In this document: in pieces, positions 5,413 to 40,406 of the stretch | How the letters are laid out: the number at the start of each line of letters is the position of its first letter | Numbering within the stretch: position 1 is the stretch's first letter | NCBI GenBank assembly: GCA_027475525.1 | Contig: JAMWFC010000117.1 | Coordinates: 4,140,183 to 4,204,182 of the forward strand | Length of the DNA: 64,000 bases | Source: Macrolepiota albuminosa | Taxonomy: Eukaryota; Basidiomycota; Agaricomycetes; Agaricales; Agaricaceae | Direction: 5' to 3' | The notes under the pieces: generated by a model | Databases searched by the model: none | What the model was told of the DNA's origin: nothing | What the model saw: only the letters and a program-made list of their open reading frames with translations | Translations under genes and position numbers: made by a program

Positions 5413-5421
5413 TCTCCCCCC
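5413..5421 (-). other. E2 polypurine tract
   Basis: Reads GGGGGGAGA on the minus strand, immediately before the LTR terminus TGATAGG. This is the expected plus-strand DNA primer of a minus-strand-coded element. The same arrangement occurs in E3, E4 and E5. Confidence 0.8.
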
Positions 5422-5432
5422 AACTGAAAAAT

Positions 5433-5448: not shown

Positions 5449-5581
5449 CCAAATAAGGCTACCGTTACCGCTTTTGTGACAAGTGGTCCGTGCGTTCTTG
5501 AGATTTGGTTTATAGTCCTGGCGCATGAGTGTGGACTTCGTTTCTTCTCCCCATCTTTTCCTGGCGCTCAATTAAAATAAA

Positions 5582-14592: not shown

Positions 14593-14951
14593 AGCGACTG
14601 TGTTGGCGAGTTCGGTTAGCGGTAGTGGGGAAGGGGTTCTAGAGATTGGCGACGGGGTAAGAGAAATGAGTTGAGAAAGAGGCGTTAGCGGAGTAATTGG
14701 GGTGATTGGTTGCGGTATGGTAAAGGGCGACGCTAAGGGGTCGTCGGCGCTATAATCAAGGGAATGCGGGAAGAGATCAGGAAATGCGTCTACAGTGGCG
14801 TTCTGTAGTTCCTGTGCAAGAGAGAGACCCGGTAAGGCACCAGGTGGTTGTGGAGTTGATGGGTGGGAAGGAGCTATGCCTTCTGCCGACTGGTCTAGCA
14901 GGCGGCGCCTACGCTGGAGACAGGTTTCTGGCGGAATTCTGCCCTAGAGAT

Positions 14952-14969
14952 CCCTCGCGGTGGGCTCCA
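14952..14969 (-). other. E2 primer binding site
   Basis: On the minus strand TGGAGCCCACCGCGAGGG lies three bases inside the right (5') LTR. It matches the E3 site exactly over 18 nt. It should pair with the 3' end of a tRNA ending CCCTCGCGGTGGGCTCCA, whose identity I cannot assign. Confidence 0.8.
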
Positions 14970-14972
14970 ATT

Positions 14973-16005
14973 TGATGACGCCCAAAGTTTGGTCAGCAAC
15001 AAATGTAACTTTTGTGTTACCGTACCAAGAGTTTGCGTTGGGCGCGCTATAAGTGATGTGAGGAGTCCCGGGCAGGTCCCAGAGAATGCGCCTGTGAAAA
15101 TGGGTAAAAGTCGGTAAGGGAGTTGGCAAGTGTAAAGCGCTAAGGTAAAGCGCCTATGAAAGAGCGGTAAGCGAACACGGCAAAGGTAAGCGGCAAGAGC
15201 ACGATAAGCTTAGCGAAGTCTAAGCGTCAATAATGCCTGCCGTAGTTGCAAGGCGCGAGTATGTCGAGTGCAAGAGCACGATAAGCTTAGCGAAGTCTAA
15301 GCGTCAATAATGCCTGCCGTAGTTGCAAGGCGCGAGTATGTCGAGTGTTGGCGAGCGTCTGTAACTGCCGATGAGTTTGACGTTGCCGACCGTAGCGTAA
15401 ATGAGCTCTTGAGCGTAAGGGAGACTGAGGAAAGGGGAGTAGTAAACTCTGGTCTATTGTTCAATTATGATCCTCTATGTACAAGTCGGTAAGTACTTTT
15501 ATACTGCAATGAGTTTGCCGTCGCCAGTGGCTAATGACGCCAGAGTGTGGTAAACTAGAAAATTTCAAAGGGGTAGCTCCAGCGGTTTCAGATCCCTACC
15601 ATCCATTCAAGAGCCTTAGCGACACCAGGCAACAGATTGCGAAGCTAAACCATCACTCCATCACCCTTCTGTCTGTCAGAGCACCTAAGCAATGTCAGGC
15701 GCCAAATCGAGACGATAAGCGGTGTCAGATGCCAAGGTCAAACGCTAAGCTGTCCGTCAGTTTTTGATAGATCATCAGGCTTCTCGCTAAGCGCTGTCGT
15801 CAGTGACTGATGCCATCTGTCAGTTGTCATTCTTGCTGCCGTCAGCGCTATCACTGATTGGATCTGCTTCTTGCCGTGCGCGGCCATCAGAAATGGCTTA
15901 AAATAGGTAGAACGCATGCACTAAGTTCGGAACAAGTGCGGCAAGGTTTCCGGAGCCGGTGCCGAGCCTGCCGTTGATGCGCCTAGCTTGTATAGGGTCC
16001 TATCA
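14973..16005 (-). repeat. E2 right LTR (5' LTR of the pol strand)
   Basis: About 956 bp without the internal 77-bp duplication. It starts TGATGACGCCC and ends GGGTCCTATCA. Several substitutions separate it from the left LTR, many of them C:G/T:A. Confidence 0.93.
15194..15347. repeat. 77-bp tandem duplication 8
   Basis: Copies at 15194-15270 and 15271-15347 in the E2 right LTR. Absent at the equivalent place in the left LTR and E5. Confidence 0.95.
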
Positions 16006-20900: not shown

Positions 20901-22136
20901 TCAAGAAATCAGAATCGGTCCGAGTATTAATTCCTCTATCGCTCTCCCTAATCCCTCCGTTGTTCCATTCCCGTGCATATCAGGTGTGAGTAGATCAATT
21001 CTTGCCTGGCCGACAATGTTGTCCGGTGCAAGTACCTCCTCAATGGCAACCATGATTGCTGCCGCAGCTTCCTTTTCTCCGAGATGATCCAACATCATTT
21101 GGCCGGCCCATATCATTCCAATGGGATTGGCAATGCCTTTTCCCGCGATATCCGGAGCGCTACCATGAACTGGCTCAAAAAGACTGGGTAACCACTCCTT
21201 CGTGGGATCATTACGCCTCGCAGAAGGATTCAGGTTTGCCGAAGGCGCAATACCGATGGTCCCTGTGCATGCCGGGCCCAAGTCCGACAAAATATCGCCG
21301 AAGAGGTTAGATCCGACGACGACATCAAACGTATGTGGCCGCTGCACGAAATGGGCGCATAGAATATCGATATGATATTTTTCCACCGTGACGTCTGGGT
21401 ACTCTTTCGCGATTTCTTCAACCCTCTCATCCCAGTATGGCATCGTGACTGAAATCCCATTAGATTTCGTTGCAGAAGTCAGCTTTTTAGCTGGTCTGCT
21501 TCTTGCCAGTTCAAAAGCGTACCTCACAACTCTGTCGACGCCAATGCGGGTAAAGACCGTATTCTGGATCACAGTCTCTCGGTCGGTCCCCTCGAAGATC
21601 TTTCCTCCGATAGAGCTATACTCTCCTTCGGTGTTCTCTCTGACCGTGATGAAATCGACCGGTTTCCCTCCAGGGTTAGCTAAAGGAGAGACGACACCTG
21701 GAATGAGACGACAAGGTCTGAGGTGATGAAATCGACCGGTTTCCCTCCAGGGTTAGCTAAAGGAGAGACGACACCTGGAATGAGACGACAAGGTAGGTTA
21801 ATGTATTGATCGAATTCCCGTCGGAATGTCAGGATGCTTCCCCAGAGAGAGATATGGTCTGGTACATTCGACGGATCGCCAACTGAGAAAGATGAGAGCA
21901 GTCAGGAATAGCGTGGAGGGAACGAATTACCTGCCCCGAAGTGATAGCATCGCATGCTTGCAGTTGTGCCTTCCAATCATCAGCGAGCATCTTCCCATGC
22001 TCAAGATAATACGTGCAAGATCCCCAGGGGAATATCCGAAATTCAAAACGGAAGCCGAAGCGCCTCGCTGCAGCTTCAAGACAGCGTAAGGCAGGGGACA
22101 TCACCTCAGGACCGATGCCATCTCCTGGGAGAACAG
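20901..22136 (-). pseudogene. Tartrate/D-malate dehydrogenase-like gene, main part, interrupted by E3
   Basis: Member of the isocitrate/isopropylmalate dehydrogenase family, NAD-dependent oxidative decarboxylases. The minus strand reads LPGDGIGPEV (22130-22100), GDPSNVPDHISLWG, NPGGKPVDF, RENTEGEYSSIGG, ATKSNGIS, NLFGDILSDLGPAC, GIAPSANLNP and EPVHGSAPDIAGKG. These motifs fit tartrate/D-malate dehydrogenases better than LEU2-type enzymes. One intron (21883-21930, GT-AG) is clear. The first ten codons are at 32632-32663, beyond element E3. Further lesions: one nucleotide appears missing at about 21938-21945 (the DAIxFGAVGDP motif), and there is a 77-bp-period duplication at 21646-21794. The C-terminus ends at TGA 20903-20901. 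The one-base loss may be mutation or sequencing error. Confidence 0.88.
21646..21794. repeat. 77-bp-period tandem duplication 11 (imperfect)
   Basis: 21646-21717 repeats at 21723-21794. The period is 77 but only 72 bp match, with five unmatched bases between copies. Removing one copy restores the dehydrogenase frame into VRENTEGEY. Confidence 0.85.
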
Positions 22137-23055
22137 TGATGCGAAATGTAAGTTTACTTATATTGTAAAGTAGCCTTAACGGAATAAGACTAGACTTTTA
22201 AATAAGTCAACTTAACTTCACTAAGATCGTGGGGCTTAGTTACGCGCACGCACACTCCGTAAAGTAGTGTTGTTATAATTTTTATTGATTTTAAAATTGT
22301 AATGCAAATCAAAATTCACACTAAAATTTGGGAATCAAATAGTATTAATTACTAATAAAACCCGAAGTCAACTATTATGCGGCTGGCCTAAGATGTCCGC
22401 TCCCTGGGGACTCCGAGCCGTGGCAAGTGCGTTGCTTGCCCGACTCCCCCAAATTCCCCTCCTCTTTATACTGCCTCCTTCGACGCACGGACCGTCGAAT
22501 CCCTCGTGTATTTTTATGTTGTGCGCACGACTGGCGCTCGGCGTAGCGTTGTACCGGGTCTGGACCTCGGTTGCTGTTTGTGCCGGCGCTTGGCGTCGTG
22601 GCTAAAGGTTCGTCCATCTTTTTCTTCGGCTCTTCCTACCCTTCTAACTCTTTGGTTATCCTTCTTCCTTCTTTTGCCAGAGCGGCCTGTCGTGGTTGCG
22701 TGGTCGTGGTACAACGTGTCGAGGTGCTGAGGACGAGGCTCATCGTTGTTTCCAATGGTACGTCGTCACTCGGGGATAGTTCTTTTTGATGGTTGATGCC
22801 GGATCTGACTGCCGAGCACCGCCACTGTCGGCTATCCCCTTTGATCGGATATTCGGCGCATCTCTACTTGGCTGTTTACGTGCTGGGTTCGTCGTTTTTA
22901 CACGTCGTGAGGCTTTTTTTTTTTGAGGTGAAGGCTCCCGCGTCTACAGTTTTCGACGCCTGCTTACAGTTTTCAGCAGATAACCGTTTGGTTTGTTTGT
23001 TTTTAGGGAGCCTTTCTTGTCTTTCTTATGCCTCGATTTAGAGGCATTCGTATCA
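22137..23055 (-). repeat. E3 left LTR (3' LTR of the pol strand)
   Basis: 919 bp, same length as and apparently identical to 31713-32631, offset 9576 bp. The small ORFs inside it occur in both copies and are not treated as genes. Confidence 0.97.
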
Positions 23056-23064
23056 CCTCCCCCA
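23056..23064 (-). other. E3 polypurine tract
   Basis: Reads TGGGGGAGG on the minus strand, directly before the LTR terminus TGATACGAATG. It fixes the direction of the genomic RNA as minus. Confidence 0.8.
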
Positions 23065-23074
23065 CACTATGTAA

Positions 23075-23090
23075 TGACTGTCCTCAGTCA
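23075..23090. promoter_or_regulatory. Conserved inverted repeat TGACTGTCCTCAGTCA (E3)
   Basis: Identical 16-mer to those in E2 and E5, 20 bp inside the LTR and about 180 bp upstream of the antisense start codon. Surrounding sequence is not conserved between E3 and E2/E5, which makes the match notable. Confidence 0.6.
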
Positions 23091-23272
23091 TCGTAAACCA
23101 GCCTGGTGAGCCCAGCCTTTCCATTTTCAATTTTCTCCGAGCCAAAGTCTTAAAATTTGTCTTCCGTATCTGCAGTAGATAGAGAATAAAATTTTTCGCT
23201 TTTCCCTCTCCTGAGTCGTTCGATCATACCCGTACCAGCTTAAAACGACGATGCCTGCCCTCATTCCTGAGC

Positions 23273-24552
23273 ATGGCTCCTTCCGGTGTCCCCACTGCTC
23301 CTCGCAAGTCTGCAAACGCTAGACCGCGTCCTCAAGTCGTCATTTCGACCCCTCCAAAGCCACCTGCTCCGCCTCCCCAGCCTGCGCCTGTTCCGACGGA
23401 TTTTTATGGCTTGTTCCAGCGCGCTGTCAAGCGCGATGGCAACAAGGTTATAACGTCCGTGTTCAAGTACCCATGGTTCGCAGAGGCTGCAATTGGCCTC
23501 TGTGCCACTGCCAGGTCTTTTCCTGGAACACCTGCCGACCGTGCTCGGTTCTTAGGTGGCGCTGGCTGGGTCTGTTCTTCTTTTTCCCTCTTCCCCCTTC
23601 CGTCTGATGCTTTTCACAGCGTTTTGCTGATGAGAGCACCTTTGGTCGTCTCTCTGAACAGAGAGGTCTTTGCGAGACTCTCTCCGGCATCCTTCCCTTA
23701 CTTGATCGCAGTGCCGCTGATGATTCGGGCGACGTGAAGGCATTCTTTTCCTTCGTTGACGCTTTCCTCGTCGTTGCACAGAACGAAAAACTTAGGAAGG
23801 AGCGCGAGGAGGTAAGTTCCCCTTTCAGTTCCTCTACTTGTAATCCTGATTCTTTTGCTACAGGTACTGCGTCGCGCACAGGACAAAGATGTCGAGATGC
23901 TCGGTACGCCTACTCCGCGCCCCGCAAAACGCCGTGCTAACGTAAGTTCTAGCTCGCAAGCTTGACTTAGTTGTGCGTCGCTTGGACACGCTGACGTTGT
24001 CTCTTCCCCCTCCTCAGGTCGAGCCCGAGGGGAAACCAAGGGCAAAGAAACTCAGGGTGCATCCATCACTTGGTGCGTTCCCTTTGTTATCTTTCGTTGT
24101 CCCTTTTCTCATCCTTCTTGTCACCCAGCTAGCCATGTTCCTGGTAGCGAGGCAGCACTGGCGCTACTTTCCGAGGTGGACCAGGTCTTGGACGCGGTCC
24201 AACTGGCTGACGACGACGACTCCGTTCCTCAAGCTGAACTTCAGAGGCACTGCGACGCGGTCGACGTAGCTGCACAGCTTCAACTTTACCAGCTTGACAT
24301 CGTGCTGCAGACCTTCAAGATGATCTCCGAACGCCGTGCGCGTCTCAGCAAGGTTCTTGGTCCCTCTGAGGTTGACCAAGCTGGCTCGTTGCTCCACGCG
24401 CTTCAGGTCTCCTTGCCAGTATGTCCTTACTTCTTTTCTATTGTCAGGTCTTATTACTTTTTCTGTTTGTTTCACAGTCCGGTAACGACGACTCCGATAT
24501 TGAATTTCAGGACCTCCCGCAGGACGCAACCGAAGACGCCGTGGCGGTATAA
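23273..24552 (+). CDS. E3 antisense gene, six exons, unknown protein of about 328 residues
   Basis: Exons 23273-23569, 23620-23811, 23864-23941, 24018-24072, 24129-24418 and 24478-24552. All five introns start GT and end AG, all phases agree, and the frame ends at TAA. The start MAPSGVPTAP is followed by a Pro-rich tract (residues 25-43), a short conserved-looking block (FYGLFQRAVKRDGNKV), a helical middle, two basic nuclear-localisation-like patches (RPAKRRAN, KPRAKKLRV, residues 115-140), a helical region, and an acidic C-terminus. No zinc cluster is visible, unlike E2, E4 and E5. An upstream ATG at 23251 in another frame could be a short uORF. The gene is convergent with pol. Its introns survive because the genomic RNA is antisense to it. 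Function unknown; a nuclear protein is a reasonable guess. Confidence 0.85.
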
Positions 24553-24740
24553 AAGACTTCCTCGTTGCAAACACCGATTCTGTGTTTGCCTAGTTTAGTC
24601 TCAATATAATCCCCCCCCTTCCCTCTTTACTTCGTAGTACCCCAATATATTCCTTAAGTCCGAAACGTGCGATGTTTAAGTTTTTGATTGATAACCACAC
24701 GTTTCGTTCTTTTCTTCGGAATTTTATTTTATTCCCCCCC

Positions 24741-25060
24741 CCTGGGGCTCGAACTCTCGACACACCGTCTCCCCATGCTTTTTCCTCAGTTTCAAACTTG
24801 AACGCTCACTATTTTTAGTCAACGTTTTTAGTTCTTTGCTGGGTTCGAACTCGCACGTTGGCCTGCTATGCCCATGTCTACGTAGACCTTTTATCCCCTG
24901 CCTGGTTTCGAACTCGCGCGTTGACGTATTGTGTCAACGCTCGACTCTTTCTTAGACCACGGGTTAGGTTCGTACTAGAACGTCGGCGCCTTAAATCCTT
25001 ATTAAACCATAACCTTTTAGTTTTTAACTCGCACATTAGCACTTTTGTGCTCATGTCCCA
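24741..25060. repeat. Degenerate array of about 60-bp units with TTCGAACTCGC
   Basis: In the 700-bp gap between the two convergent genes of E3, versions of GGTTCGAACTCGCACGTT recur near 24745, 24843, 24906, 24968 and 25025. The spacing is mostly 57-65 bp, and the later units end in CAT/GTC-type words. The core resembles a tRNA T-arm (GGTTCGAA), but I find no cloverleaf. The rest of 24553-25252 shows no gene and presumably carries both polyadenylation sites. Confidence 0.45.
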
Positions 25061-25252
25061 TTGTAAACTTAATTAGTTATGGTCTTAAATCAAGGATCTT
25101 TTCTGTATTTGAGTGGTAGCCAGTCTTAGACTAGTACTTTTCTTGAGTGCCTCTTCCTACTGACCACCTTTTTCTCCTTATACTGTTAAATCCTGCCTGG
25201 GCCTGAACTATTGTTATTTCTTTTTAGAAATATAGTTCATCTTTTCTGGATT

Positions 25253-28200
25253 TTAATCAGTTGGAGACAGACCCAACTCCTGGTCAGTGGGCTCATGGAG
25301 CCTTACTGTGCCAAAGGAGATGTCCTTGGTGATTAGCTCTGTAGGTTTTCGTAGTTCTTCCCTTAGCTCTTTTAGCTTAGCAGGTGTAATATCCACCCAC
25401 TTCTCTATGCCTTGAGGCAAGATCAGCTTTTTACGAGCCTTGTAAGGTACAACTCGAAAAGCAGCTACCCGTGCTTGCCAAACTGACCCATCTAGTTCTG
25501 CTACAATGTAGTTACCACCCTGAGTCTTGGCAATTACTACCATAGGCCCATGGAATCGTGGCAACATCTTAGCACTGAATGAACTTTCTGTAGTCATGTT
25601 TTTGACTAGTACCAAGTCTAATGGTTTAAAATTGAAGTCTTTGATTGAGCTTTTATGCTCTTCTGCAAACTTCAATGCCCACTGGAGCTTAGCCTTCCCA
25701 ACTCTCTCTCTCATTTCCTCCACATGTTGATGGTGTTTGGCTAGAGCTCTAGCACGATATCCAATCAACTCCCCTGTAGTCAGAGGTCCCTCTGGTAGTT
25801 CTACCAACCAGGTGGCCTCTGCTAGATCCAAGGGTAGAGTAGGATGTGCACCAGTGACCATGAAGTATGGTGAGCATCCAAACCTCTGCCTAATGGTTAT
25901 CCTGTCACTCCACATTACATGGTAGAAGAACCAGAACCATTTAGTGCGATCCTCACAGGCCTTGAACAAAGCTTGCCTGACATCCCAATGAGGTCTTTCA
26001 ATTCTACCATTAGCTGGTGAGTTGTAAGGGGAGATAGTAATACCTCTAATCCCATACTTCTTTTCCAACCAGGCAGTGACCTGCTTGAACTGTCCAGCAT
26101 TATCTGTGATGATTTCTGCAATGCAGCCCCAGCGGCAAATCACATCTTCAAACAACCATTGACCAATGGTCTTATGGTTCTCCTTCCTCAGGGGTCTACC
26201 TTCCATCCAAGAAGACAAGGCACACCTGCCATGTACTATGTACTTACAGCCATTGGAGGCTGGTGTCATGTGCATGGTATCAATGTGAATTGTTTGGAAG
26301 ATGGAAGGAGTATAAGTTACAGTTGGTTCTCTGTTGACTACTGTCTTTTGTCTGATTTGACAATTGTGACAAGTCCCAACATACCACTGCACATCCCCTT
26401 CAATGCCAGGCCACCAGAAGCGCTCCTGTATAAGCATTTTGGTGGCATAGGCTCCCCTATGTCCTAAGGCATCATGGGCTGATTTAAGCATGAACATTCG
26501 TCTATCAATTTGGACTACTAGTTTATGTTTCTCCTCATGACAGCGCTTATACAATCTCCCTTTCTTGTCAAAGAAGAATTGCCTAGCAAACTTCTTAAAC
26601 TTCTCTAGATCCCAGCCTTGTAGATTCTTGGGTTCTGTACCTGGGTCTTGCAACCAACTCTGAACAGTGGGTAGCAGATTATCCCAGTCTTCACCCTCAC
26701 TACCTTTCCTGTGTTCTAGGTAGGTTTGTGTGTCCTCTACTCTGACTTCTTGGTCTTCCACTGGTAACAGAGGCATGGTCATAGCTAATACTGCTACTGG
26801 GTTCATGCTTGTTCCTGGGGTTTGACTCAAGATGCCATCCCTAAGCTCCTGCTCTTGGGACCTGGCTCTACAAAGTTCTTGCTCAAAGTCTGATACTTCA
26901 GTAGCTACCATGTTTAGATAGCCACCTCTAGTGTCAATTTGATCTGCAAACTCTTCAAGTTCCAAAGGTTCCCAACCCTCCCAACCAGGTATATTATTGA
27001 TCTTGTCTGGATACTCATAGTTCATAGACTTGGGTTCATCCATTAACTCAGGATCAACTGGTGGGTACTCCTCATCTCCTGGTTGTTTAGGCCGTCTTGA
27101 CAATCCATCCACACTGAATGTTTTGCCTGGCACATGCCTTAAGGTAAAGTGGTAGAGTAGGACATTCTCAATCCATCTCATGATGGTGGCATTGGGTCCT
27201 ACTCCAGGATTTCCTAGCATCCCTTTAAGATACTTGGCATCTGTCTCTATCACTAGTTTTCTACAACCAACTAGCCAATGCTTGTTGGCTAGCAGAGATC
27301 TCATGAGACCATACAGCTCTCTTTTTGGTTGAGAAAATCTAGCTTCTCTCTCATTCAGGGTGATAGATCCTAACTTGGCACAAGTGCGCATTTTAGGATT
27401 GTCTGGGTCTTCTTGGAAGATTCCAAAACCTACTGCCATCCAGGATGTATCCACTGACAGAACTACTGCACCTCCTGACTCATAGTCAATGGGTTTTAAA
27501 GGAGCACTTTCTGCTAGCAACTTTTTCATTTGTGCCATTGCAGAGCGCTGTTCTTCTCCCCAAGTAAAAGGTACATTATTCTGAGTAAGTTTATTGATAG
27601 GTGCTGCTACCTTAGCATAATCCTTGATAAAGGATCTAAAGGTACCACAGGTCCCTAAGAATGACTTTACTTCATGTTTATCCCTGCAGTCACCCCATCC
27701 CATCACTATGGCAAATCTCTTGGTCTCTGGCTTCTGCCCTTCATAAGAGCATCTATGGCCAACAACCACAATCTCATCTGCACATACTACTGACTTCTTT
27801 CCAGAGAAAGTCCCTCCTGCATATTTGATTCTTTGTAACACTCTATTCACATTGAGTAGGTGTTCCCATACAAATCTCCTAATGCCTGGATTCTCTGGTA
27901 TGACTTCACAGCTACCATCTGGCAACTCATATCTATGAGGTGGCCCTCTGACTGGTACATCATCAATGTATGGCCAAGTTACATGTGGTATCTCATCCTT
28001 CAAGATGAATGTAATATCATCATGGAAGATAGGCACTGAATTTGTCCATCCCATTGGTAAGGTAACCAACCTCAGAGCACCAAATGGTGTCTGGAATGTA
28101 GTATAATCTCTAGAGCGCACATCTAGTACTCTCTCATCATATCCTACATACAAGTCAAAGATTCCTCCACAAGCCCTGCCTGAGAAGTGACTAGCTAATT

Positions 28201-29077
28201 CCTCAGTTGCTGGTGGCAACCCAGAATGTGCTATGGTCACTTTATTCAAAGGCTCCAAGCTATGGACTATCCTCAAGCTTTCACCATCCTTCTTTAACAC
28301 TGTAAACCATTGGGAGCGATATGAGGAGTTAGAGGGCTCATAGACCCCTGCCTCAATCTTCTGCTTTATCATTTGGCAGATTCTATCCCTAAGGCCTGGG
28401 GCAATAGGAATGTTCTTCAACACCCAAGGGGTGTGAGGTATTACTGGCATGATTACTGGAGGGAAGAATTCCTCCTTCAGCCTTCCTCTTTGAGCATCAT
28501 CCCATGCAAAAGCCTGGTTTTGCAGCATCATAAGGTGATGTACTGCTTTCATCTCCTCTGGCCAAAGAAAACCATCACCATGGGCTTGGTCAATGACTTC
28601 TTTGCACTCAGCTGTGTATCTCCCTGTGGGTTTGAACTCTGGTGGATTGGGATCCAACTGAGGCATGTCTGCCAGTGGGTCTCCAGTAATGCACCTTTCA
28701 ATTCTAAACTCCTCAGGTGAGGTACCTAGTACAGGCTTAACTTTTCTAGCCACAGGTTTGTATTTCTTAGAAAATACTTGGGCAGTCTCCCCCACACCTG
28801 CTTTTGACTCTAAGTTTTCCTCTTGTACTAGCAGCTCCTCAAGACTGTCAGGTATCTGAGCTAAATGCCCATTCAAATATGCTGACAATGTCTTCTGCTC
28901 CTTCTCTTCACACTCCTTGCTTGCTGTAAAAGCATGCAAGTACACATCTCTCAACTCTTCCTGACTGAATTTACTATGTTCCATAGAATATCCAGTCACC
29001 ACAATCTCCCCTTCCTGAGTCTCAGCAAGACTTATTGCAATCTCTCCCTGGTCTGTAACCAGTTCCTCGAGACTCAA
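25253..29077 (-). CDS. pol: E3 pol: reverse transcriptase, RNase H, integrase (about 1274 residues)
   Basis: Open throughout. Numbering from 29077: an acidic linker (1-200), RT (about 215-450) with YIDD and the catalytic pair D372/D373, RNase H (LSVDTSW near 545, ETDAKYLKGML near 620), integrase H2C2 finger (about 865-907), integrase core with D933 (HIDTMHM), D992 (IITDNAGQF) and E1027 (GRIERPHWD), 34 residues apart, then a C-terminal GPMVVI domain near 1180. No chromodomain. The frame has no ATG at its start and overlaps the protease frame by 4 nt in the -1 direction, so it is probably made by ribosomal frameshifting. It acts in virus-like particles and the nucleus to copy and integrate E3. 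Its RT is closely similar to that of E2. Confidence 0.93.
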   Translation of the reverse strand: MSLEELVTDQGEIAISLAETQEGEIVVTGYSMEHSKFSQEELRDVYLHAFTASKECEEKEQKTLSAYLNGHLAQIPDSLEELLVQEENLESKAGVGETAQVFSKKYKPVARKVKPVLGTSPEEFRIERCITGDPLADMPQLDPNPPEFKPTGRYTAECKEVIDQAHGDGFLWPEEMKAVHHLMMLQNQAFAWDDAQRGRLKEEFFPPVIMPVIPHTPWVLKNIPIAPGLRDRICQMIKQKIEAGVYEPSNSSYRSQWFTVLKKDGESLRIVHSLEPLNKVTIAHSGLPPATEELASHFSGRACGGIFDLYVGYDERVLDVRSRDYTTFQTPFGALRLVTLPMGWTNSVPIFHDDITFILKDEIPHVTWPYIDDVPVRGPPHRYELPDGSCEVIPENPGIRRFVWEHLLNVNRVLQRIKYAGGTFSGKKSVVCADEIVVVGHRCSYEGQKPETKRFAIVMGWGDCRDKHEVKSFLGTCGTFRSFIKDYAKVAAPINKLTQNNVPFTWGEEQRSAMAQMKKLLAESAPLKPIDYESGGAVVLSVDTSWMAVGFGIFQEDPDNPKMRTCAKLGSITLNEREARFSQPKRELYGLMRSLLANKHWLVGCRKLVIETDAKYLKGMLGNPGVGPNATIMRWIENVLLYHFTLRHVPGKTFSVDGLSRRPKQPGDEEYPPVDPELMDEPKSMNYEYPDKINNIPGWEGWEPLELEEFADQIDTRGGYLNMVATEVSDFEQELCRARSQEQELRDGILSQTPGTSMNPVAVLAMTMPLLPVEDQEVRVEDTQTYLEHRKGSEGEDWDNLLPTVQSWLQDPGTEPKNLQGWDLEKFKKFARQFFFDKKGRLYKRCHEEKHKLVVQIDRRMFMLKSAHDALGHRGAYATKMLIQERFWWPGIEGDVQWYVGTCHNCQIRQKTVVNREPTVTYTPSIFQTIHIDTMHMTPASNGCKYIVHGRCALSSWMEGRPLRKENHKTIGQWLFEDVICRWGCIAEIITDNAGQFKQVTAWLEKKYGIRGITISPYNSPANGRIERPHWDVRQALFKACEDRTKWFWFFYHVMWSDRITIRQRFGCSPYFMVTGAHPTLPLDLAEATWLVELPEGPLTTGELIGYRARALAKHHQHVEEMRERVGKAKLQWALKFAEEHKSSIKDFNFKPLDLVLVKNMTTESSFSAKMLPRFHGPMVVIAKTQGGNYIVAELDGSVWQARVAAFRVVPYKARKKLILPQGIEKWVDITPAKLKELREELRKPTELITKDISFGTVRLHEPTDQELGLSPTD

Positions 29078-30099
29078 AATTTTGCTTCACTCTCCCTAGC
29101 AGCCCCTGCCTTTGGCATTTTGCCTCTTTCAATAGTAGGCAGGGCAGTTCGACGACCTGTATTAGGGTCTCGAATGGTGATGATGGCGCTGCCATCCTGC
29201 AAGTTTTGAATGTTGCTTTCTGTCAAGGTGTCAAATGGACGACCCAATAAGACAGTATAAGCAGGACTCTCAAAAATATGCACTTGTAGATAGATAGTGA
29301 ACCCTTCTGCAAAAGTGAATGGCACATTACGTGCTAAACCAACAGATTCATTCACTTGCTGATTGGCACTCTCCATCCTCAGCCTAATGTCTGGATCCCA
29401 AGTCAATCCTAGATTGAGAGCCTCTCTTAAAGCCATGCAGACTATTTGAGATCCACTATCTAGAATTGCCTCTGCTCTTCCCTTTTGATTGACAACTGGG
29501 TTGAGAGATCTCAGAACCTGCAACTCCCTGGCTACATATACCACTACTGGCTTTTCTCCTGTTGGGATATTTTCCAAGTAAGTGGCAACACAATCCTGGT
29601 GCACTACTGCACCAGTAGGCAAGCCAGATTGTGTTCCATCTGCAATGAAGTAGGTGGCCATAGGTAGATCATTAACATCTACCTTGTTAGGCTCTTTCTC
29701 CACTGCTGTCAGGTGTTGAGTAGCTGTCCTAGGAATATTGGGTTCCTTAGGCCTGGGAGGCTTTGGTACCAACTTTTGTACCATGACCTCCCTCAAACCA
29801 GGTGCCACATCCAGAAGTTCTCTGGTGGTTAGTGGCACTGGTACCTCCCACAGCTTCTCAACCATCTTCTCCAGCTCCTTCCTAGTTCCCTGAATGGAAC
29901 TCCTACCAGTGTCCTGCACTGGTACCTCCTGCCTCTCATTCAAAGCTGGCACCTTTTCAAAAGGTAAGTCCAACTTGGGTGCCACTTTGGGTGGAATCCT
30001 CAAAGTTAGCTTTTCTTTCCAGGAATTTTGTGGCTGCCTCTCTGGAAATGTGGGTATCCCTGGTGGAGCTTCCCTCACTTCCTTCCTTGAGCTCCTCAA
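29074..30099 (-). CDS. pro: E3 aspartic protease with long linker
   Basis: A 341-residue frame between gag and pol. The retropepsin active site AILDSGSQIVCMA is at about residues 211-223 (Asp 214), followed by LLGRPFDTL near 290. The N-terminal 200 residues are a charged, Pro-rich linker. It overlaps gag by 4 nt and pol by 4 nt, both -1 in frame, and neither overlap offers an ATG. The sequence at the gag overlap is GGATTTTTGA and at the pol overlap AAATTTTGA; both stops fall right after a T run, which suggests slippage. It would cleave the polyprotein. Confidence 0.88.
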   Translation of the reverse strand: MRSSRKEVREAPPGIPTFPERQPQNSWKEKLTLRIPPKVAPKLDLPFEKVPALNERQEVPVQDTGRSSIQGTRKELEKMVEKLWEVPVPLTTRELLDVAPGLREVMVQKLVPKPPRPKEPNIPRTATQHLTAVEKEPNKVDVNDLPMATYFIADGTQSGLPTGAVVHQDCVATYLENIPTGEKPVVVYVARELQVLRSLNPVVNQKGRAEAILDSGSQIVCMALREALNLGLTWDPDIRLRMESANQQVNESVGLARNVPFTFAEGFTIYLQVHIFESPAYTVLLGRPFDTLTESNIQNLQDGSAIITIRDPNTGRRTALPTIERGKMPKAGAARESEAKF

Positions 30100-31388
30100 A
30101 AATCCTTGGACCCTCCTTGTTGTCCTTCACCAGGACTAGGAGCATGCCTGGTGTTGACTAAGACTGACATGACTTCTGTCAGTCTTTGAAAGCCTTTTTC
30201 CAGTTCCCCTAGCCTGTCTGCCTCTCCATGCTGGATGCGCTCCAACATGTCATCCCTAGTATCTCTTACAGCATTGGTGTAAGTAGAGTAGGTTGGGATG
30301 TCTTGAGCTTCCTCAGCCCAGCCAAAGTACAACCCCACTTGAGAGTCATGTAACTTCATTACTCTATCATGTGGTGATATGCTTGATGGCTCTCTGGGTA
30401 GAGGGGCTCTGTTGGGCATCCTGGTCCTTCCATCCACTAGTATCACCCATCCCTTTTGAACATCTGATTTCACCTGCTCACACTCAGCTATACGATGACC
30501 AGTTCCCCAACAGTAGAAGCAGTATGTGCTTCCACCAGGGGTTGGCATCATGGCCTGAGCAGGCCTCTCTGTTTGCCCTCCATGGTGGCTTTTGGTAGTT
30601 AGGAAGGCATTCCTTATGTCCAGTTGGCTATTTTGCAGAGCCTGCATAGCACTTTGGATGCTGCCAACCTGCTTCCCAATAGCAACCATGGAGTCTTGCA
30701 GATGAGCCATCCTTTCTTCTGCCTCCTCATTTTTCACTACTACTCCACCCACCTCCCTGTTGGTGGTTTCTCCCCTAGTCTTCCTGACAGTTGTCCCATC
30801 TACTAGGGCTGTCACTACTGCAATCACTTCAGACAAGTCATATTTGTTGTCCTTGTGACGATTACGAGCAGGATCCCTGTAATGGCCATGTTTGTGGATG
30901 AGTCTCTCCTCCACTAACTCTGCCAGGGTGGGTGTAAAACACCCCATAAACTTATCCACCAATACCCCATTCCCTACAACACTGTCCAGCTTTTTGGCTT
31001 CAGCCCTGAATTTTCTGATTAAGGAGTGCAGCTCAGGGGCATCCCCTCTGCTTAGCCTGGCATGCTCCCTACAGATCCTATCCAGGTTTGCCATGCTTCC
31101 TGCCTCATCCATAGCTTCAGGGTATGATTCCTTAACCTCCTTTATAAAGGTGGCCCAAGGATATCTATCCTCAAAACTATCGAAACCTCTCCATTCCTGC
31201 TCAGTTTCTGCATCCACATATTCTAATAACCTCTTCTTCTTTTCTCCATCCTCCACAATGCCTGCATGATTGAATAGAGACTGCATTCTCTGCAGAAACC
31301 TGTGAACCTCAGCAGGCTCACTGCTTCTGAACTTAGGTGCATCTCTACTTTCAGGCAATGGCATTTTATAGCGCATGGGTTGCTCCAT
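30096..31388 (-). CDS. gag: E3 gag with CCHC zinc knuckle
   Basis: About 430 residues from ATG 31388 (MEQPMRYKMP), chosen because E2 gag has an equivalent MEQ start. The frame stays open upstream to 31667 without an ATG, so a longer or non-ATG form is possible. A gag core (RFLQRMQSLFNHAGI...) is followed by one canonical CX2CX4HX4C knuckle (CFYCWGTGHRIAEC, about 30490-30530), which binds the genomic RNA. A helical C-terminal tail precedes TGA 30098-30096. Gag is first after the 5' LTR and primer site on the minus strand. Confidence 0.88.
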   Translation of the reverse strand: MEQPMRYKMPLPESRDAPKFRSSEPAEVHRFLQRMQSLFNHAGIVEDGEKKKRLLEYVDAETEQEWRGFDSFEDRYPWATFIKEVKESYPEAMDEAGSMANLDRICREHARLSRGDAPELHSLIRKFRAEAKKLDSVVGNGVLVDKFMGCFTPTLAELVEERLIHKHGHYRDPARNRHKDNKYDLSEVIAVVTALVDGTTVRKTRGETTNREVGGVVVKNEEAEERMAHLQDSMVAIGKQVGSIQSAMQALQNSQLDIRNAFLTTKSHHGGQTERPAQAMMPTPGGSTYCFYCWGTGHRIAECEQVKSDVQKGWVILVDGRTRMPNRAPLPREPSSISPHDRVMKLHDSQVGLYFGWAEEAQDIPTYSTYTNAVRDTRDDMLERIQHGEADRLGELEKGFQRLTEVMSVLVNTRHAPSPGEGQQGGSKDF

Positions 31389-31692
31389 AATGCTGGTCAA
31401 CTTAGTTGGCTCAGACAATGAAGACTTAGGTGTTTGTGGTGTAGGCGTGTACTTCTCAGTCCGAAGTTTTCGTTTACGAAGTACAGCGTCTGGATCCGGG
31501 AGACTAGCAACTGTGCCCTTGGAGGATGCACGAGTTTCTCTTCTCCTGGGAGAAATAATGGTTTTTGCCCTTGGTGTAGTAACCTTAGGCGTGCCGGGCC
31601 AAGAACCTGGCGGTGCGAAACTAATGTTTCTTTTTGGGTTTTTGGACTCCAAATGGAAGTCCGACAAAGTGTTTGTTTGTGCAACAAAAGCC

Positions 31693-31710
31693 CCCTCGCG
31701 GTGGGCTCCA
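31693..31710 (-). other. E3 primer binding site
   Basis: The minus strand reads TGGAGCCCACCGCGAGGG two bases inside the right LTR, identical over 18 nt to the E2 site although the LTRs themselves are unrelated. It should pair with a tRNA 3' end. Confidence 0.85.
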
Positions 31711-31712
31711 GA

Positions 31713-32631
31713 TGATGCGAAATGTAAGTTTACTTATATTGTAAAGTAGCCTTAACGGAATAAGACTAGACTTTTAAATAAGTCAACTTAACTTCACTAA
31801 GATCGTGGGGCTTAGTTACGCGCACGCACACTCCGTAAAGTAGTGTTGTTATAATTTTTATTGATTTTAAAATTGTAATGCAAATCAAAATTCACACTAA
31901 AATTTGGGAATCAAATAGTATTAATTACTAATAAAACCCGAAGTCAACTATTATGCGGCTGGCCTAAGATGTCCGCTCCCTGGGGACTCCGAGCCGTGGC
32001 AAGTGCGTTGCTTGCCCGACTCCCCCAAATTCCCCTCCTCTTTATACTGCCTCCTTCGACGCACGGACCGTCGAATCCCTCGTGTATTTTTATGTTGTGC
32101 GCACGACTGGCGCTCGGCGTAGCGTTGTACCGGGTCTGGACCTCGGTTGCTGTTTGTGCCGGCGCTTGGCGTCGTGGCTAAAGGTTCGTCCATCTTTTTC
32201 TTCGGCTCTTCCTACCCTTCTAACTCTTTGGTTATCCTTCTTCCTTCTTTTGCCAGAGCGGCCTGTCGTGGTTGCGTGGTCGTGGTACAACGTGTCGAGG
32301 TGCTGAGGACGAGGCTCATCGTTGTTTCCAATGGTACGTCGTCACTCGGGGATAGTTCTTTTTGATGGTTGATGCCGGATCTGACTGCCGAGCACCGCCA
32401 CTGTCGGCTATCCCCTTTGATCGGATATTCGGCGCATCTCTACTTGGCTGTTTACGTGCTGGGTTCGTCGTTTTTACACGTCGTGAGGCTTTTTTTTTTT
32501 GAGGTGAAGGCTCCCGCGTCTACAGTTTTCGACGCCTGCTTACAGTTTTCAGCAGATAACCGTTTGGTTTGTTTGTTTTTAGGGAGCCTTTCTTGTCTTT
32601 CTTATGCCTCGATTTAGAGGCATTCGTATCA
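31713..32631 (-). repeat. E3 right LTR (5' LTR of the pol strand)
   Basis: 919 bp, TGATGCGAAATG to CATTCGTATCA. Should carry the promoter for the gag-pol RNA on the minus strand. Confidence 0.97.
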
Positions 32632-32663
32632 ACAGCGATTGTATAAGTCCGTTGGTGCGCCAT
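32632..32663 (-). pseudogene. Dehydrogenase-like gene, first codons, separated by E3
   Basis: ATG 32663-32661 opens MAHQRTYTIA and runs into the ACAG target duplication. Joined across E3 at 22136 it reads in frame into VLPGDGIGPEV, the conserved nucleotide-binding start of the family. This proves that E3 sits inside this gene. The 325 bp between this ATG and the end of the kinase-like gene (32989) must hold its promoter; I see no further gene there. Confidence 0.92.
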
Positions 32664-32988: not shown

Positions 32989-35165
32989 TTAATACGAAAA
33001 GAAACCCATCCCGAAAACTTTTTCAGCTAATGACTCTTCACTCGCTCTGCATGACGCCCAGAGGTTTGCCTGCTGGCTAGGCAAAATGTGACTAGGACGC
33101 CCAGCATTCTTCCAGTGAAAAGATCTGCCAAAATCAATCAAGCGGAAGCTCAAATCCTCTCTCCTGCGCTGCGAGGGTGGAGCACTGATCGGGCCACGTT
33201 GACTGACAATGTTACGAGGGTAAATCGAACCGTGAGCCCAACCTGCGTGATGGAGACGGTAGATAAGAGACAGGGCTTCATTCCTATGAAACAAGATGTC
33301 AGCTTTCCTTAAAATCATGAAGAGAGCCAGAAGCTCACTTTTGGTCATAAGTGAGTTCTTCGGGATTGACAGGCGAGCCACAATCTTCAAGAAGCAGAAT
33401 GGGACTGAAATACCCCGTTTTCTTGTTCTCGCCTTCCTTATCTTCCCTTTCCTGATTATCTTTATCATCGTCAAAGTTCCACTCTGGGACATAGTACCCA
33501 TAGAACTGCGGCACCAATGCTCCAACTGGGACAGGATCGTGCATAGGTGGAAGAATATTGAATCCACTCCAGTGCTGGAACATGTGCTTCTTAAACGATT
33601 CGTAGTTGGCCGCCTCACTAACCAGATGGTCATCATTGCGAAGGGACAGTTTACCTATTACGCGCATCTTCACCGTAGGAGGTACCTCAGGCGGCGGCTT
33701 TACATGTGGACACGTCGGATGCATCGGGTCTTGCCATTCAACAGTCGTGCGTATAGGGCGCACGGGACCAGCGTATTCGGCATGATATGTGCAGTCCTGC
33801 GTCTCAAACTGACCTTCATCTGAATCACTTTTATCAAGATTTTGTCTCTGTACGACGTGAAAGACAACGGATGGTCGGCCCTTAGGAACAAGCTTGATCT
33901 CCCCACTCAACTCCTTCCATTTCGGGTTTTTGAGCTCACCATGCTCACCATCCTCCTCACGAATAATGCGCGCAATGTCTGCCTTGACACACTGTTCGCA
34001 CAGGATAAAATCGGTAGAGGGTGGTGGAATGACGGCTGATCGTGGAAGCTCCCATTCGGCTTGATAGACAACAGAGTGGTTTCCGGTCCCAACAACGTAC
34101 TTTGGGGAGAGATAAAGGTGCGCTTCTTCGATGGGTTCACTAACTTTTGAGGCTGGGGCATGGGAACGAGGAGGACGTCCGTGCACGACGAAGACAGGAG
34201 GCTCTACGGGACCAGGGATTGCAGGTGGACGGATGAGGTAGCCTTCGAGGACATTCTTCTTGTCAGCACGATCTTCAAGAGGATCGTTAATGAATTCATT
34301 GATTAAAATCTCTTTCTTCTGAGCCTTAAGTCGTTCTTCAGCTTCCGCTTTCGCTCGTTTTGCACCATGTTTAGAAAATTTGAGCCTGTATACATGCGTG
34401 ATATCTTCCATGGAAGTCCATTCCTCACCATCATAAGGCTTGGCTCCGCCGAAGACATTCTTTGACTGGACAGCAAGGAGGTTCCAGGGATCGTGCACGA
34501 CAAGTTTTTTAGGAAGGTGATCAAGGTCGATGGTTGATGTGATGCGCTCGGTTTTGTAACTGAAGGGGACGAGAGGCCACGACAAGGGGTAATTAGCAAC
34601 ATCAAAAAGAGATCCAGTCGATGCCTGTAGAAGGGTTCAACCGATACAACTTGAACGATGGATGTGACCAGACCTCTTTGCCTTTCATTATCTGCTTTGA
34701 CATAGATATCCCGGCCTTCCCCTGCCTGATATTTTCCTCCAGTTCTTCAATCTTCGTACACGGTGACCACAGCTCAATAATCTTTGGAACCTCTTCCATC
34801 TCTGCCCACGCAATCTCGTCCTTAGCGTAGTCAGTCTCGCCGTTCGCTTTCATCCACTCCATCAACTTGCTTCCAGTCGTGATCGTTGAGAGATAAGGCA
34901 CATCTGGCATCCGGTTTACTCGATAAAAGTCGAATATCGTCGCACCCCATAATTGAATGCCGTTTGGAATCGTTTTTCCGGGAAGCGTGTTCGCGGGAGT
35001 AATATTGCTGCCTTTAGGGTCACGTGGCCAATAACGGTAAACCATTCGTTTACGAGACCTTTTGCCGTTCAAAACCTGGAGAGCTTCGCTTGTAGATGCT
35101 TCGTCTTTGGTTGGCATTCTCGAATTTCCTGACGTCTTGTCCTTTTTGAAACCGGTATTGTACAG
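32989..35165 (-). pseudogene. Fungal kinase-like gene, main part, interrupted by copia C
   Basis: Minus strand. The N-terminal region (35165-34610) runs MVYRYWPRDPKGSN, QLWGATIFDFYRVNRMPDVP and so on. A run of five T (plus-strand A 34604-34608) is one base too long and shifts the frame; with four it reads on as WISFDVANYPLSWPLVPFSY. The kinase-like domain has GTGNHSVVYQAEW (P-loop-like), an intron at 33284-33338, AGWAHGSIYPRNIV (catalytic-loop position, with HGS instead of HRD) and FRLIDFGRS (DFG). It ends at TAA 32991-32989. It belongs to the kinase-like proteins typical of mushroom-forming fungi; the missing catalytic Asp leaves activity doubtful. The first 29 codons are at 40759-40847. Confidence 0.85.
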
Positions 35166-35517
35166 TGTTACAATCCAGGGCGCAGGACACCGTAAGTGTG
35201 CCGACCTCCCTTTACCCTTCACACACGTCACACATATCACACGACATATCACACACCTTTGTCGTCAATGGACAAAGGAATATATAGATACATATATACC
35301 CTACTTACACAACGACACCCTCAGTCACTTCTATTCAGACTGAGGGTGAGTCGACATACTATACATGATACAAAACATAATACTTACTGTACCGTAGATC
35401 AGACTCTGACGTAGTCTGTGTATTGCAGGTACAGAATACAGTCACTTCTATTCAGACTGAGGATCAGACTCTGACGTAGTCTGTGTATTGCAGGTTCTAA
35501 TAGTACGGATTCCAACA
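35166..35517 (+). repeat. Copia C 5' LTR
   Basis: 352 bp. Contains a hairpin CCCTCAGTC...GACTGAGGG (35318-35346) and an internal direct repeat of about 34 bp (GATCAGACTCTGACGTAGTC..., at 35397 and 35462) that is present in both LTRs and so is genuine. Confidence 0.97.
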
Positions 35518-35527
35518 GGTTATGGGA
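35518..35527 (+). other. Copia C primer binding site
   Basis: GGTTATGGGA directly after the LTR. It is complementary to the anticodon loop region of initiator tRNA-Met (CCCAUAACC), the half-tRNA priming used by Drosophila copia. Copia D has GGTTATGGGCC at the same place. Confidence 0.75.
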
Positions 35528-35704
35528 CCTTGCTGCTTCGTACTCTGAGGTGCGATACTGGAATCCGACGGAATCTCTGTCTATTGTTTCTTTTTTTTCG
35601 GGCCGGCAGTCCGATTTTCACGCATCTAATCCTCGCGCGGCTCGCGTGGAGAACCTTTTTTCACCCCTGCTGTTTTCTAAAAACCCGCCTGTATCCGGTG
35701 AACG

Positions 35705-38700
35705 ATGACTACGCCTGGTACTGATACCAAGCCCGCCACCCCTGCCCCCACGTCTGTGGACGTACCTCTAGCTCCGGAAATCATCGCAGAAATGCGTCGA
35801 GTCGATAGCTCAACGAACCCGACTGTCCTGTCTGTCGGGAAGGTTACTGCGACCTGGAGCGGCCATATTTTAGAGAAGGATGACGGTCGTTGGGGGGAAT
35901 GGTCTTACAATATGGACCTTGAGCTGTCTATGGCACAGCTGTGGGACTGCATCTTCAACCAACCTCCGCCGCCACATCCGGTCTATGAGCCTCGTGCGCA
36001 TCGGGCCTGGATCAGCAACAATCGCTTGGCCTGCTCTTTCATAAAGCGCGCACTGTCCACGTCAGAGCAGAAGCTGTGTGCGGGGGAATGGGATCCGATA
36101 AAGCTATGGAAGTACCTTAAGGATCGTCATGGTGGTGCAGTGCCGGTTCAGCAAGTCCGCCTGCTCCAGGAGGCTTTAACGATGAAGTGCTCTGCGTCGG
36201 AGTCTCTTACAAAGACAGCGGATGCCATCTTGGATAAGATAAATCGTGCTTTCGAGGCCGGCGACGTCACCAAGGAACTGTTGCAGTCGATCGCGATCCT
36301 GTCTTCCCTCTCCGACAAATCCTACGCCCACATCAGATCAATTATATCCCGCGATCTCACTGCCGCGGCTGATGTAGCGAAGTATGGTCCTGCTCAGATC
36401 CGGCAGTTCCTTGAAGGTGAACAAACGCTCATCGACGCGGATAAATCCATGGGCGTATCAGCAGAGACTGTGACGGTCCTGGCGGCGAAGACCTCCAGGC
36501 TCGAGAAGCTAGTCTGTAACAACTGTAAGGCCCGAGGCCGTGCGTCGTTCACGGGGCATACCATGCCATGGTGCATCCTGGAGGGTGGAGGCATGGCCGG
36601 GAAGACCATTGAGGAGTCCCGGGTGGCGAGGTTAGCCAAGTTTGAGGCCCAGCGAAAGGAGAAGGACAAAAAGCCGGCGATTTCGAAGGTCACCATCACA
36701 CCAGCAGGGGGCAAGGCATTCACTCTCGAGGGCGACTCTAGTTATATCGCCGCATGTGTCGCTGCACAGGGTGGGATGGCTACCAGCAAACCGGAATTCG
36801 CAGGTCTAGCCTCAGACGAGGTACCGACCACCTCTTTAGCAGAAGTCGAGATGATGGAGTTTGACGCCTTGATCGCGGTTGAGGAGGAGTGTAGGCCCGG
36901 CAGACCCAACCTTACTCAAGACGCTGACACGGCGTTAGCGGCCATATCAACCGAGACTTCCCCTTTTTACCTCGATTCAGGAGCTACCGTGCATATCTCC
37001 CCTGACCCAACCGATTTTGTTACTCTAACCCCAATTCCGGAGCGCCCGGTCCGGGGAGTTGGGGGGGCCACTATTGCCGCAAAAGGGATAGGCAATGTAC
37101 GTCTACTGGTCAAGGGCGGCGCTCGAATTGAGGTGCAAAACGTGCTGTACATACCGGAATCTACAGCTCGCCTCCTCTCCGTTAGTAAGCTCGCCAAGCA
37201 GAACGGAATCTTCACGACTTTCAACAATGAAGGAGCACAATTAATGAAGCAGCCCTCTAGAGCCGTTGTTGCGACTGGCACACTTCTCCCCCATAAAAGC
37301 CTATATGCTTTAGACCTTCACGTTGATCACGCTCTCGCAGTCCACTCACCCCCCGACCTTAAAACCTGGCACCTCAGGCTGGGCCACGCAAACTACCAAG
37401 CCATAATGCAGATGGCTCATGCTGGCATGATCGAAGGTATGCCCAAGACCTTCCCCTCCAAACCTCCCAAATGTAACCATTGTATTCTCGGTAAACAGGC
37501 TCGAACGCCCGTACCGAAGGAAAGGGAGGAAGGGAGGGGGCATAGGGCTACAAGGAGACTTGAAAAAGTTTGGGTGGATCTAGCGGGTCAATCAGCAGTG
37601 ACGTCGCGTACTGGGAACAATTACGTTATGAATATAGTGGACGACTTTACCAATAAACCGTGGTCCATACCCTTAAAATCGAAAGATGAAGGTTTCGGTG
37701 AGCTACGGGCTTGGATCCTCGCCCGAGAAAACGAAACTGGGGAAAAGGTCAAAATTCTGCGGACAGGACGTGATGGCGAGTTCAACGGGGTCGAGCATAA
37801 GTCTTGGTATCGATCTAAAGGTATATTGCTTGAGGTCGGGGCACCATATACGTCCGCCCATATCGGACGTGTTGAGCGTATGCATAGGACACTCATGGGA
37901 AAGGCTCGATCTATGCGTTTGGCAGCAAACTGTCCCCCGTTCCTGTGGGATGAGTTTTATCTCACCGCCACCCACCTCCACGGGAAGACGAAAACGTCAG
38001 CAGTAGACAACGTAACCCCGGATGAATTGTGGTATGGGAGACGACCGGACTACTCCTACATTCGCGAGATAGGCTGTCGAGTGTTCGTCCTGATCATGGG
38101 GCAACACAACCCAAAAGTATATGAGCGATCCATCGAGTGCGTCCTAATTGGCTACGATTCGAACTCTAAAGCGTATCGATGTTATGACAAGTCAACGAAG
38201 AAGGTGTACAGTACATACCACGTACGATTTATAGAGAGTCACGAGGACAGCATGCCACGAACCGCACCACCAGATCCAAGTACCACACCAGACTTTGAAC
38301 GGAAGACCGACTACCCCACCATAACGTCGATAAGTGATCGGTCCGTGCCTGAACCCAACACGCGCCACGACGACGAAGAGCCTATGCGTATTCCAGGGTG
38401 CATCACCCAAGACGAGGAGACTATCCAACCTGCTGCCACGCCTATCGAATCTACGGCAACCGAAGAGCGACAAGTGACGCCGGACCCAGCTCCCACCAGA
38501 CCTGAAGAGCCCATGATGCCTCGCCGATCGGACAGGACTCGTATACCTACTGTTCGATCATCACCGGGTATCCAGACGGAGACACGAACGGAGAGGGCTA
38601 CGAGGGAAGCGAGAGAATCAGCTGAACGCGTCCGGGGGGCTCGAGCAGGACGGAGAAGGGCCCTGGAAGAGCTTAGGAACAACGTGCCTGAAGGAGGAGA

Positions 38701-40399: not shown

Positions 40400-40406
40400 G
40401 GAGGAG
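40395..40406 (+). other. Copia C polypurine tract
   Basis: GGTGAGGAGGAG immediately before the 3' LTR. The same sequence precedes the 3' LTR of copia D on the minus strand. Confidence 0.85.

Follow-up and report, generated by a model that had tools for sequence, protein, structure and literature searches.

A spliced antisense gene under purifying selection, with two predicted isoforms, in a mosaic Ty3/gypsy retrotransposon of an agaricomycete fungus

Antisense genes situated between pol and the 3' long terminal repeat (LTR) have been described in several retroelements, and here we compare them with AS1, a six-exon plus-strand gene carried by a minus-strand Ty3/gypsy LTR retrotransposon (positions 22137-32631) in 64,000 nucleotides of Macrolepiota albuminosa DNA (assembly GCA_027475525.1, contig JAMWFC010000117.1, positions 4,140,183 to 4,204,182 of the forward strand; this whole stretch is called the window). 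The antisense gene HBZ of human T-cell leukaemia virus type 1 (HTLV-1) has isoforms that arise by splicing, and its product contains a bZIP domain. Its promoter lies within the 3' LTR and its product is nuclear, according to the excerpted text of PMC7264820 / PMC11963269. Among plant elements, antisense additional open reading frames (ORFs) are cited for Grande (gene23), RIRE2, Retand (TRP28) and PvRetro13 in passages of PMC7264820 and PMC11963269, in line with what the sequence-only reading of the window had stated for some plant Ty3 elements. The Grande antisense protein is described in the same passages (PMC7264820 / PMC11963269) as nuclear and as transcribed from a promoter upstream of the gene. 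That reading was unsure whether any fungal version had been described, but one is in print: Boty of Botrytis cinerea possesses the antisense gene brtn (Zhao et al. 2011, Virology; as quoted in parts of PMC7264820, PMC8365987 and PMC4227169), and Boty from Botrytis and Sclerotinia is listed among the antisense ORFs between pol and the 3' LTR in a section of PMC7264820.

AS1 has the features of the group termed aORF-3R, namely an antisense coding frame between pol and the 3' LTR that is present and conserved in most copies of its subfamily. The likeness to Boty, as far as the descriptions in parts of the citing papers go, lies in a fungal LTR element with an additional antisense gene. However, Boty-like elements have a single gag-pol gene whose product has a chromodomain (in the quoted part of PMC4227169), whereas the element in the window has three overlapping frames, and its pol gave no chromodomain match in Pfam at E up to 1. 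At the same threshold neither PF04195, the domain of Retand TRP28, nor bZIP or any other known domain was found in AS1, which therefore differs from HBZ in this respect as well as in its unrelated host and element. The word 'intron' has no occurrence in the main texts of PMC7264820 and PMC11963269, whereas AS1 has five introns and an alternative isoform. Our literature search found neither an antisense retroelement gene that combines several introns with conserved alternative isoforms nor an exchangeable module of the sort described below, and no report of an antisense retroelement gene from Termitomyces or another basidiomycete. The kind of gene is thus already known, from plants and from brtn of Boty; what is new is the isoform pair, the mosaic, the copies without AS1 and a second gene in the same slot. 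AS1 is also a clear example of antisense placement allowing a retrotransposon gene to keep its introns, with selection demonstrated from many copies in one genome.

AS1 spans 23273-24552, between pol and the 3' LTR, and encodes 328 amino acids (aa) in exons at 23273-23569 (with the ATG at 23273), 23620-23811, 23864-23941, 24018-24072, 24129-24418 and 24478-24552 (with the TAA at 24550-24552). The five introns, of 50, 52, 76, 56 and 59 nt, are all GT-AG and the joined frame is free of stops. Such introns can survive retrotransposition because they lie on the strand that is not spliced in that process. A search of the genome (100 Mb in 129 contigs) gave at least 42 DNA matches to AS1 with the window's own included, the 41 further matches representing 39 other places, and at five places or more, the window's among them, the gene is letter-identical over 1305 bases. 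Only the best candidates were scored in the genome searches (40 of 51 for AS1 DNA, 77 of 3921 for pol and 150 of 818 for an exon of the gene AS2 described below), and the counts are lower bounds. For 20 of these 39 places a locus of 10 kb was analysed; 16 of the loci are distinct and make 17 copies together with the window, whereas loci L009-L012 repeat the window's AS1 letter for letter and are counted once in the codon statistics.

Across the 17 copies the donors are GT in 81 of 85 cases, GC in one more and AT in three, while all 85 acceptors are AG. The frame lacks an internal stop in 16 of the 17 copies (L028 has one stop), the end of exon 6 is missing in L021, and 13 copies are fully intact with ATG, five GT/GC-AG introns, frame and stop. 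Exon lengths change by multiples of three only; intron lengths and sequences vary. The ratio of nonsynonymous to synonymous divergence (dN/dS) has a median of 0.115 (range 0.06 to 0.46 among 136 pairs, with dS uncomputable for five of the 136 values; mean dN 0.146, mean dS 1.28), and the differences at codon positions 1, 2 and 3 are 0.15, 0.12 and 0.45. The conservation of splice sites and frame together with the low dN/dS indicates that AS1 is a protein gene under selection, and these comparisons lend strong support to the view that it is a genuine gene preserved through retrotransposition. The sequence-only reading had held the frame of a single copy to be very likely a real gene. The frame with six exons and five GT-AG introns on the plus strand recurs in divergent genomic copies, and purifying selection among them, whose absence had been named beforehand as refuting, is present.

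The sense strand over the AS1 stretch contains four ORFs of 96-148 aa, three of which are open in 2, 1 and 2 of the 17 copies. The remaining ORF, of 96 aa at 23261-23551 and facing exon 1, is uninterrupted in 12 of the 17, with differences of 0.44, 0.15 and 0.13 at its codon positions 1, 2 and 3; it looks like a by-product of exon 1, because its variable sites are its own first codon positions. We also considered an errantivirus or a plant env-like element and rejected this identity, as no sense third ORF after pol is conserved across the 17 copies.

Intron 3 of AS1 differs from the other introns. Its identity between copies is 80% at a nearly constant length, compared to 55-62% and more gaps for introns 1, 2, 4 and 5, and its differences at positions 1, 2 and 3 of a second frame, frame B, are 0.12, 0.08 and 0.40 (shuffle test, 5e-5); introns 1, 2, 4 and 5 have no such codon-position pattern in the 17 copies. 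The B segment occupies 23953-24017 on the plus strand and reads, together with the preceding codon, LARKLDLVVRRLDTLTLSLPPPQ. It would be joined by a donor at 23904 and an acceptor AG at 23951-23952, so that the tail of exon 3 (23904-23941) is coding in isoform A only and intron in isoform B. The B donor is GT and the B acceptor AG in all 17 copies, although the donor is weak evidence by itself because the codons of frame A also demand GT. Since the introns 23904-23952 and 23942-24017 share 11 nt, the two choices are mutually exclusive. Hence, with codon periodicity as the main evidence, intron 3 and the exon 3 tail are alternative coding segments, giving the predicted isoform A of 328 aa (DVEM-LGTPTPRPAKRRAN-VEPEG) and isoform B of 337 aa (DVEM-LARKLDLVVRRLDTLTLSLPPPQ-VEPEG). 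In two copies, L018 and L028, the intron 3 donor needed for isoform A is destroyed (AT in place of GT) and the B sites are retained; they could still make isoform B. Of the 19 Termitomyces gene models similar to AS1, 12 contain the B segment and five of these 12 retain the A tail too, making it possible that both are read through in those models. A comparable second frame with a different peptide is seen by eye in a second subfamily of the element. That both isoforms are conserved suggests that the splicing of this mobile-element gene is regulated.

These data also bear on the idea that the antisense RNA is what counts, rather than the protein, with double-stranded RNA tuning silencing. A transcript over the 3' end would pair with the genomic RNA, and a role of this type is named as a possibility for plant elements in a passage of PMC7264820, but a dN/dS of 0.115, exon lengths that preserve the frame, the splice sites and the second coding frame are marks of selection on the protein, and we regard this explanation as barely credible.

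The distribution of AS1 was followed across the pol subfamilies of the genome. With a 567-aa piece of pol as query, three subfamilies can be told apart among the best 77 of the 3921 candidates: the first is 92-100% identical, the second 74-77% and the third 56%. Of the 43 first-subfamily pol pieces, at least 36 are followed by an AS1 match at 1-9 kb on the downstream side; some of the absences may be false, and the 43 include fragments of one copy. The position antisense between pol and the 3' LTR, which the sequence-only reading had given for one element, is thus recurrent in the first subfamily of this genome. In the second subfamily 15 places were examined, and a homologue of AS1 is found at the expected spot in eight, antisense and with the same six exons, at about 34% protein identity. 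Its joined exons are stop-free in the expected frame in six of the eight, L044 having one stop and L029 a tandem duplication within exon 5. Searches among 5.8 billion proteins gave 19 matches to the single sequence and 28 to a profile; every one is a hypothetical protein of Termitomyces predicted by others, and no homologue outside Termitomyces came up among the 7997 and 7999 candidates scored. By these matches the host of the element is probably Termitomyces or a near relation of it.

AS1 might have been a captured host gene that rides as a passenger, one of two roles left open by the sequence-only reading. Introns kept in antisense are what capture from genomic DNA or a readthrough event would leave, but the match downstream of most first-subfamily pol pieces, the same exons at 34% identity between subfamilies and the lack of any homologue from another genus among the scored candidates make such a passenger very improbable. 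AS1 is probably a part used by the element and not a stowaway.

The remaining seven of the 15 second-subfamily places are without AS1 at this spot, some of them because the element ends sooner. In L048 the LTR comes directly after pol, and the genome has this junction five times, four of them identical and one at 92% (L048 together with C93, C86, C74 and C68).

The copies of the first subfamily are mosaics. Distances were computed for 16 copies (120 pairs), with L028 left out of the distance-matrix tests, and the label U3 is used for the 600 nt before the LTR end, resting on a TATAAAG seen by eye on the minus strand at 22464-22470. Pol is nearly uniform, with a mean p-distance of 0.036 and dS of 0.137, while AS1 exons 1, 2 and 5 average 0.22-0.26, introns 1, 2, 4 and 5 of AS1 0.41, U3 0.44 and the spacer from the AS1 stop to the pol stop (24553-25252), which is part of the divergent module, 0.33. 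The shift from uniform to divergent is seen from one block to the next across the pol stop codon. The distance matrix of U3 correlates with those of the leader (0.75), AS1 exon 1 (0.58) and exon 5 (0.31), whereas pol distances are uncorrelated with U3 (r -0.05) and with the AS1 segments (-0.14 to 0.09). The joining of a divergent LTR-AS1-spacer module to a much more uniform gag-pol implies recombination, and recombination during reverse transcription is a natural cause of such mosaics in LTR elements. In L020, L024, L025 and L026 the element's own two LTRs are 99.56-100% identical (for L025 over 458 bp only), and these LTRs differ from the window's by about 14-26% where alignable. The near-identity of the own pairs in all four tested elements indicates that the chimaeras are young; several divergent modules have thus been mobile in recent times together with a single gag-pol pool.

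The most serious rival for explaining the mosaic is plain recombination without functional matching, in which gag-pol sequences are similar enough to be homogenised and the 3' modules have drifted too far, with no need for U3 and AS1 to fit each other. The drop of the inter-segment correlation with distance along the module is as expected from this, and so are breaks inside AS1, where L013-L015 are 90-94% identical to the window from intron 3 to exon 5 and 69-72% in exons 2-3. It leaves unexplained, however, why many old module types persist with several recently active, and we give this explanation somewhat less than an even chance. Balancing or module-matching selection behind the mosaic would be a further step that we infer.

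The reading that we prefer, with a probability of roughly 0.55, is that AS1 is a resident regulatory antisense gene whose nuclear product acts in trans on the LTR-proximal DNA or RNA of its own element. Transcription of AS1 would start in or near the U3 of the 3' LTR, and U3, judging by where it lies, would drive both gag-pol and AS1, in opposite directions. The protein would be nuclear, as its linker, PAKRRAN...KPRAKKLRV, looks by eye like a nuclear localisation signal, and it would act by activation or by countering host silencing. The two isoforms would exchange a basic for a leucine-rich segment, altering location or partners; the swap itself, as predicted from the coding segments, suggests that location changes. 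A protein that is matched to its own module would be in keeping with the joint divergence of AS1 and the adjacent U3, with gag-pol exchangeable between modules. A working analogy is provided by the VANC anti-silencing proteins of Arabidopsis VANDAL elements, whose targets and specificities evolve between related elements (according to the quoted part of PMC5735166), but these are plant elements of another class. Of the passenger and the regulator proposed in the sequence-only reading, the regulator is therefore the favoured one, although promoter, nuclear location, target and direction of effect are what we infer for it.

Several observations weigh against a resident regulator. Transcription and splicing of AS1 are predictions from the sequence. 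AS1 gave no Pfam match at E up to 1, no PDB sequence match and no structural match above noise, and hence no DNA-binding domain is recognised. A pattern like that of nuclear export is present in segment B of all 17 copies but also in 64% of shuffled peptides, for which reason it carries no weight. Spacer distances show a weak correlation with those of pol (r 0.28, p 0.007), and the fading of the correlations along the module is explicable by physical linkage alone. Moreover, second-subfamily elements without AS1 have multiplied, as the repeated junction shows, and AS1 is thus not needed in cis; perhaps such elements multiply with help from others.

The multiplication of elements that lost AS1 could also be read as a release from a negative autoregulator. 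In this explanation AS1 serves copy-number control or immunity: elements of the same AS1/U3 type repress each other, rare types escape and the types diversify, and the many old divergent U3-AS1 types alongside one recent gag-pol pool form the pattern that an advantage of rare types would give. However, it is difficult to see how purifying selection would maintain, in nearly all copies examined, a repressor that damages the copy carrying it, and the five or more places with an AS1 identical to the window's show that elements of the same type have amplified. We find an autoregulator unlikely. We are equally doubtful of an accessory protein for RNA export, packaging or integration, comparable to Rev, Tat, Vpr or Grande gene23 and without sequence-specific action on the LTR. 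The signal-like linker seen by eye, the alternative isoforms and a position like that of retroviral accessory genes are compatible with such a protein, and a similar role is suggested for plant antisense ORFs in part of a review (PMC7264820), yet by itself it would leave the divergence of AS1 with U3, apart from gag-pol, unexplained.

The slot between pol and the 3' LTR is taken in other elements by an unrelated spliced gene, AS2. The left neighbour in the window (4384-16005), a second ambisense element that is Ty3-like, has LTRs at 4384-5412 and 14973-16005 that are 88% identical and gag-pro-pol on the minus strand at 8424-14943, and its AS2 is a spliced plus-strand gene at about 5582-7992, directly inside the LTR and antisense to gag, pro and pol. 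The right neighbour runs from about 60782 to beyond 64000, with an LTR followed by a spliced plus-strand AS2 from 61910, and is cut by the window end before pol. One AS2 exon reads CDKCW...CYxC...LKRxC, with six invariant cysteines spaced C-x2-C-x8-C-x8-C-x2-C-x6-C, which resembles a Gal4-type zinc cluster; this exon gave no Pfam match. It has at least 150 matches in the genome (the best 150 of 818 candidates). Between the two elements of the window dN is lower than dS in all three AS2 exons compared, with dS saturated in two. The third subfamily carries an AS2 homologue that is 41 and 51% identical in two exons, in an element whose 1043-bp LTRs are 99.8% identical, and profile comparison detected no relation between AS1 and AS2. 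Further short antisense frames, such as MTSPTGLVWTPRC and MQAPSILLPDPELPYRP, are found between the AS2 gene and pol in L030 of the third subfamily, and a Pfam scan of the frame starting MTSPTGLVWTPRC was without match.

More tentatively still than recombination by itself, an entire lineage among fungal Ty3 elements may be ambisense by design. U3 and an antisense, alternatively spliced regulatory gene would form specificity cassettes, with AS1 or AS2 in the same slot. Many cassettes of ancient divergence would be maintained side by side in one genome by something like balancing selection, around a gag-pol engine shared in recent times, and elements without a cassette would be cheaters. With a single gag-pol joined to many old antisense/U3 modules, naturally occurring copies that lack AS1 and a second, unrelated gene in the slot, the long-open question of antisense-gene function becomes directly testable.

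An inverted repeat, GACTGTCCTCAGTC, is shared by the three elements (23076-23089, 20 nt inside the LTR end of the AS1-bearing element, and also 5434-5447 and 61762-61775). The repeat GACTGYCCYCAGTC adjoins the polypurine tract in all 33 exact occurrences in the window and loci L009-L053, across three subfamilies, and it is exact in 18 of the 20 first-subfamily loci taken (without it: L027 and L028). The genome contains it 772 times and its reversed pattern not once (0). We regard it as a candidate binding site or RNA hairpin, and because it is kept in L048, which has no AS1, it may not serve AS1.

The AS1-bearing element itself is, from its sequence features, a recently inserted Ty3/gypsy LTR retrotransposon of the fungus. 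Its 3' LTR (22137-23055) and 5' LTR (31713-32631), both in minus-strand orientation, are 919 bp long, begin with TG and end with CA, and agree at 919 of 919 bases, and the insertion is flanked by the 4-bp target site duplication ACAG at 22133-22136 and 32632-32635; the minus strand carries open frames for gag, pro and pol, as the sequence-only reading had stated. A putative primer binding site, TGGAGCCCACCGCGAGGG, read from the sequence, lies on the minus strand at 31693-31710, two bases inside the 5' LTR, and a similar stretch is present in the left neighbour. A putative polypurine tract inferred by position, GTGTGGGGGAGG in the minus-strand reading, is at 23056-23067. The minus-strand frames overlap in three reading frames, each -1 relative to the preceding one. 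Gag (30096-31733) is 545 aa from stop to stop and has, by eye, a putative zinc knuckle, CFYCWGTGHRIAEC. Pro (29074-30126) is an aspartyl protease by a Pfam match below the curated cut-off. Pol (25253-29086, 1277 aa) contains RNase H at 509-641 followed by the integrase zinc domain at 866-914, the order of Ty3/gypsy; the reverse transcriptase domain itself was not reported in the Pfam scan of pol.

The insertion interrupts a gene among its first codons; the encoded product starts TIAVLPGDGIGPEV and there resembles an isopropylmalate/tartrate dehydrogenase. The identity of the LTRs implies that this disruption is very recent. The same dehydrogenase-like gene has an exact tandem duplication of 72 nt, with a spacing of 77, at 21646-21794. 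Another element at 35164-40704 has a 1565-aa plus-strand frame (35702-40399) that is Copia-like by eye, and its flanking repeats are identical over at least 300 nt.

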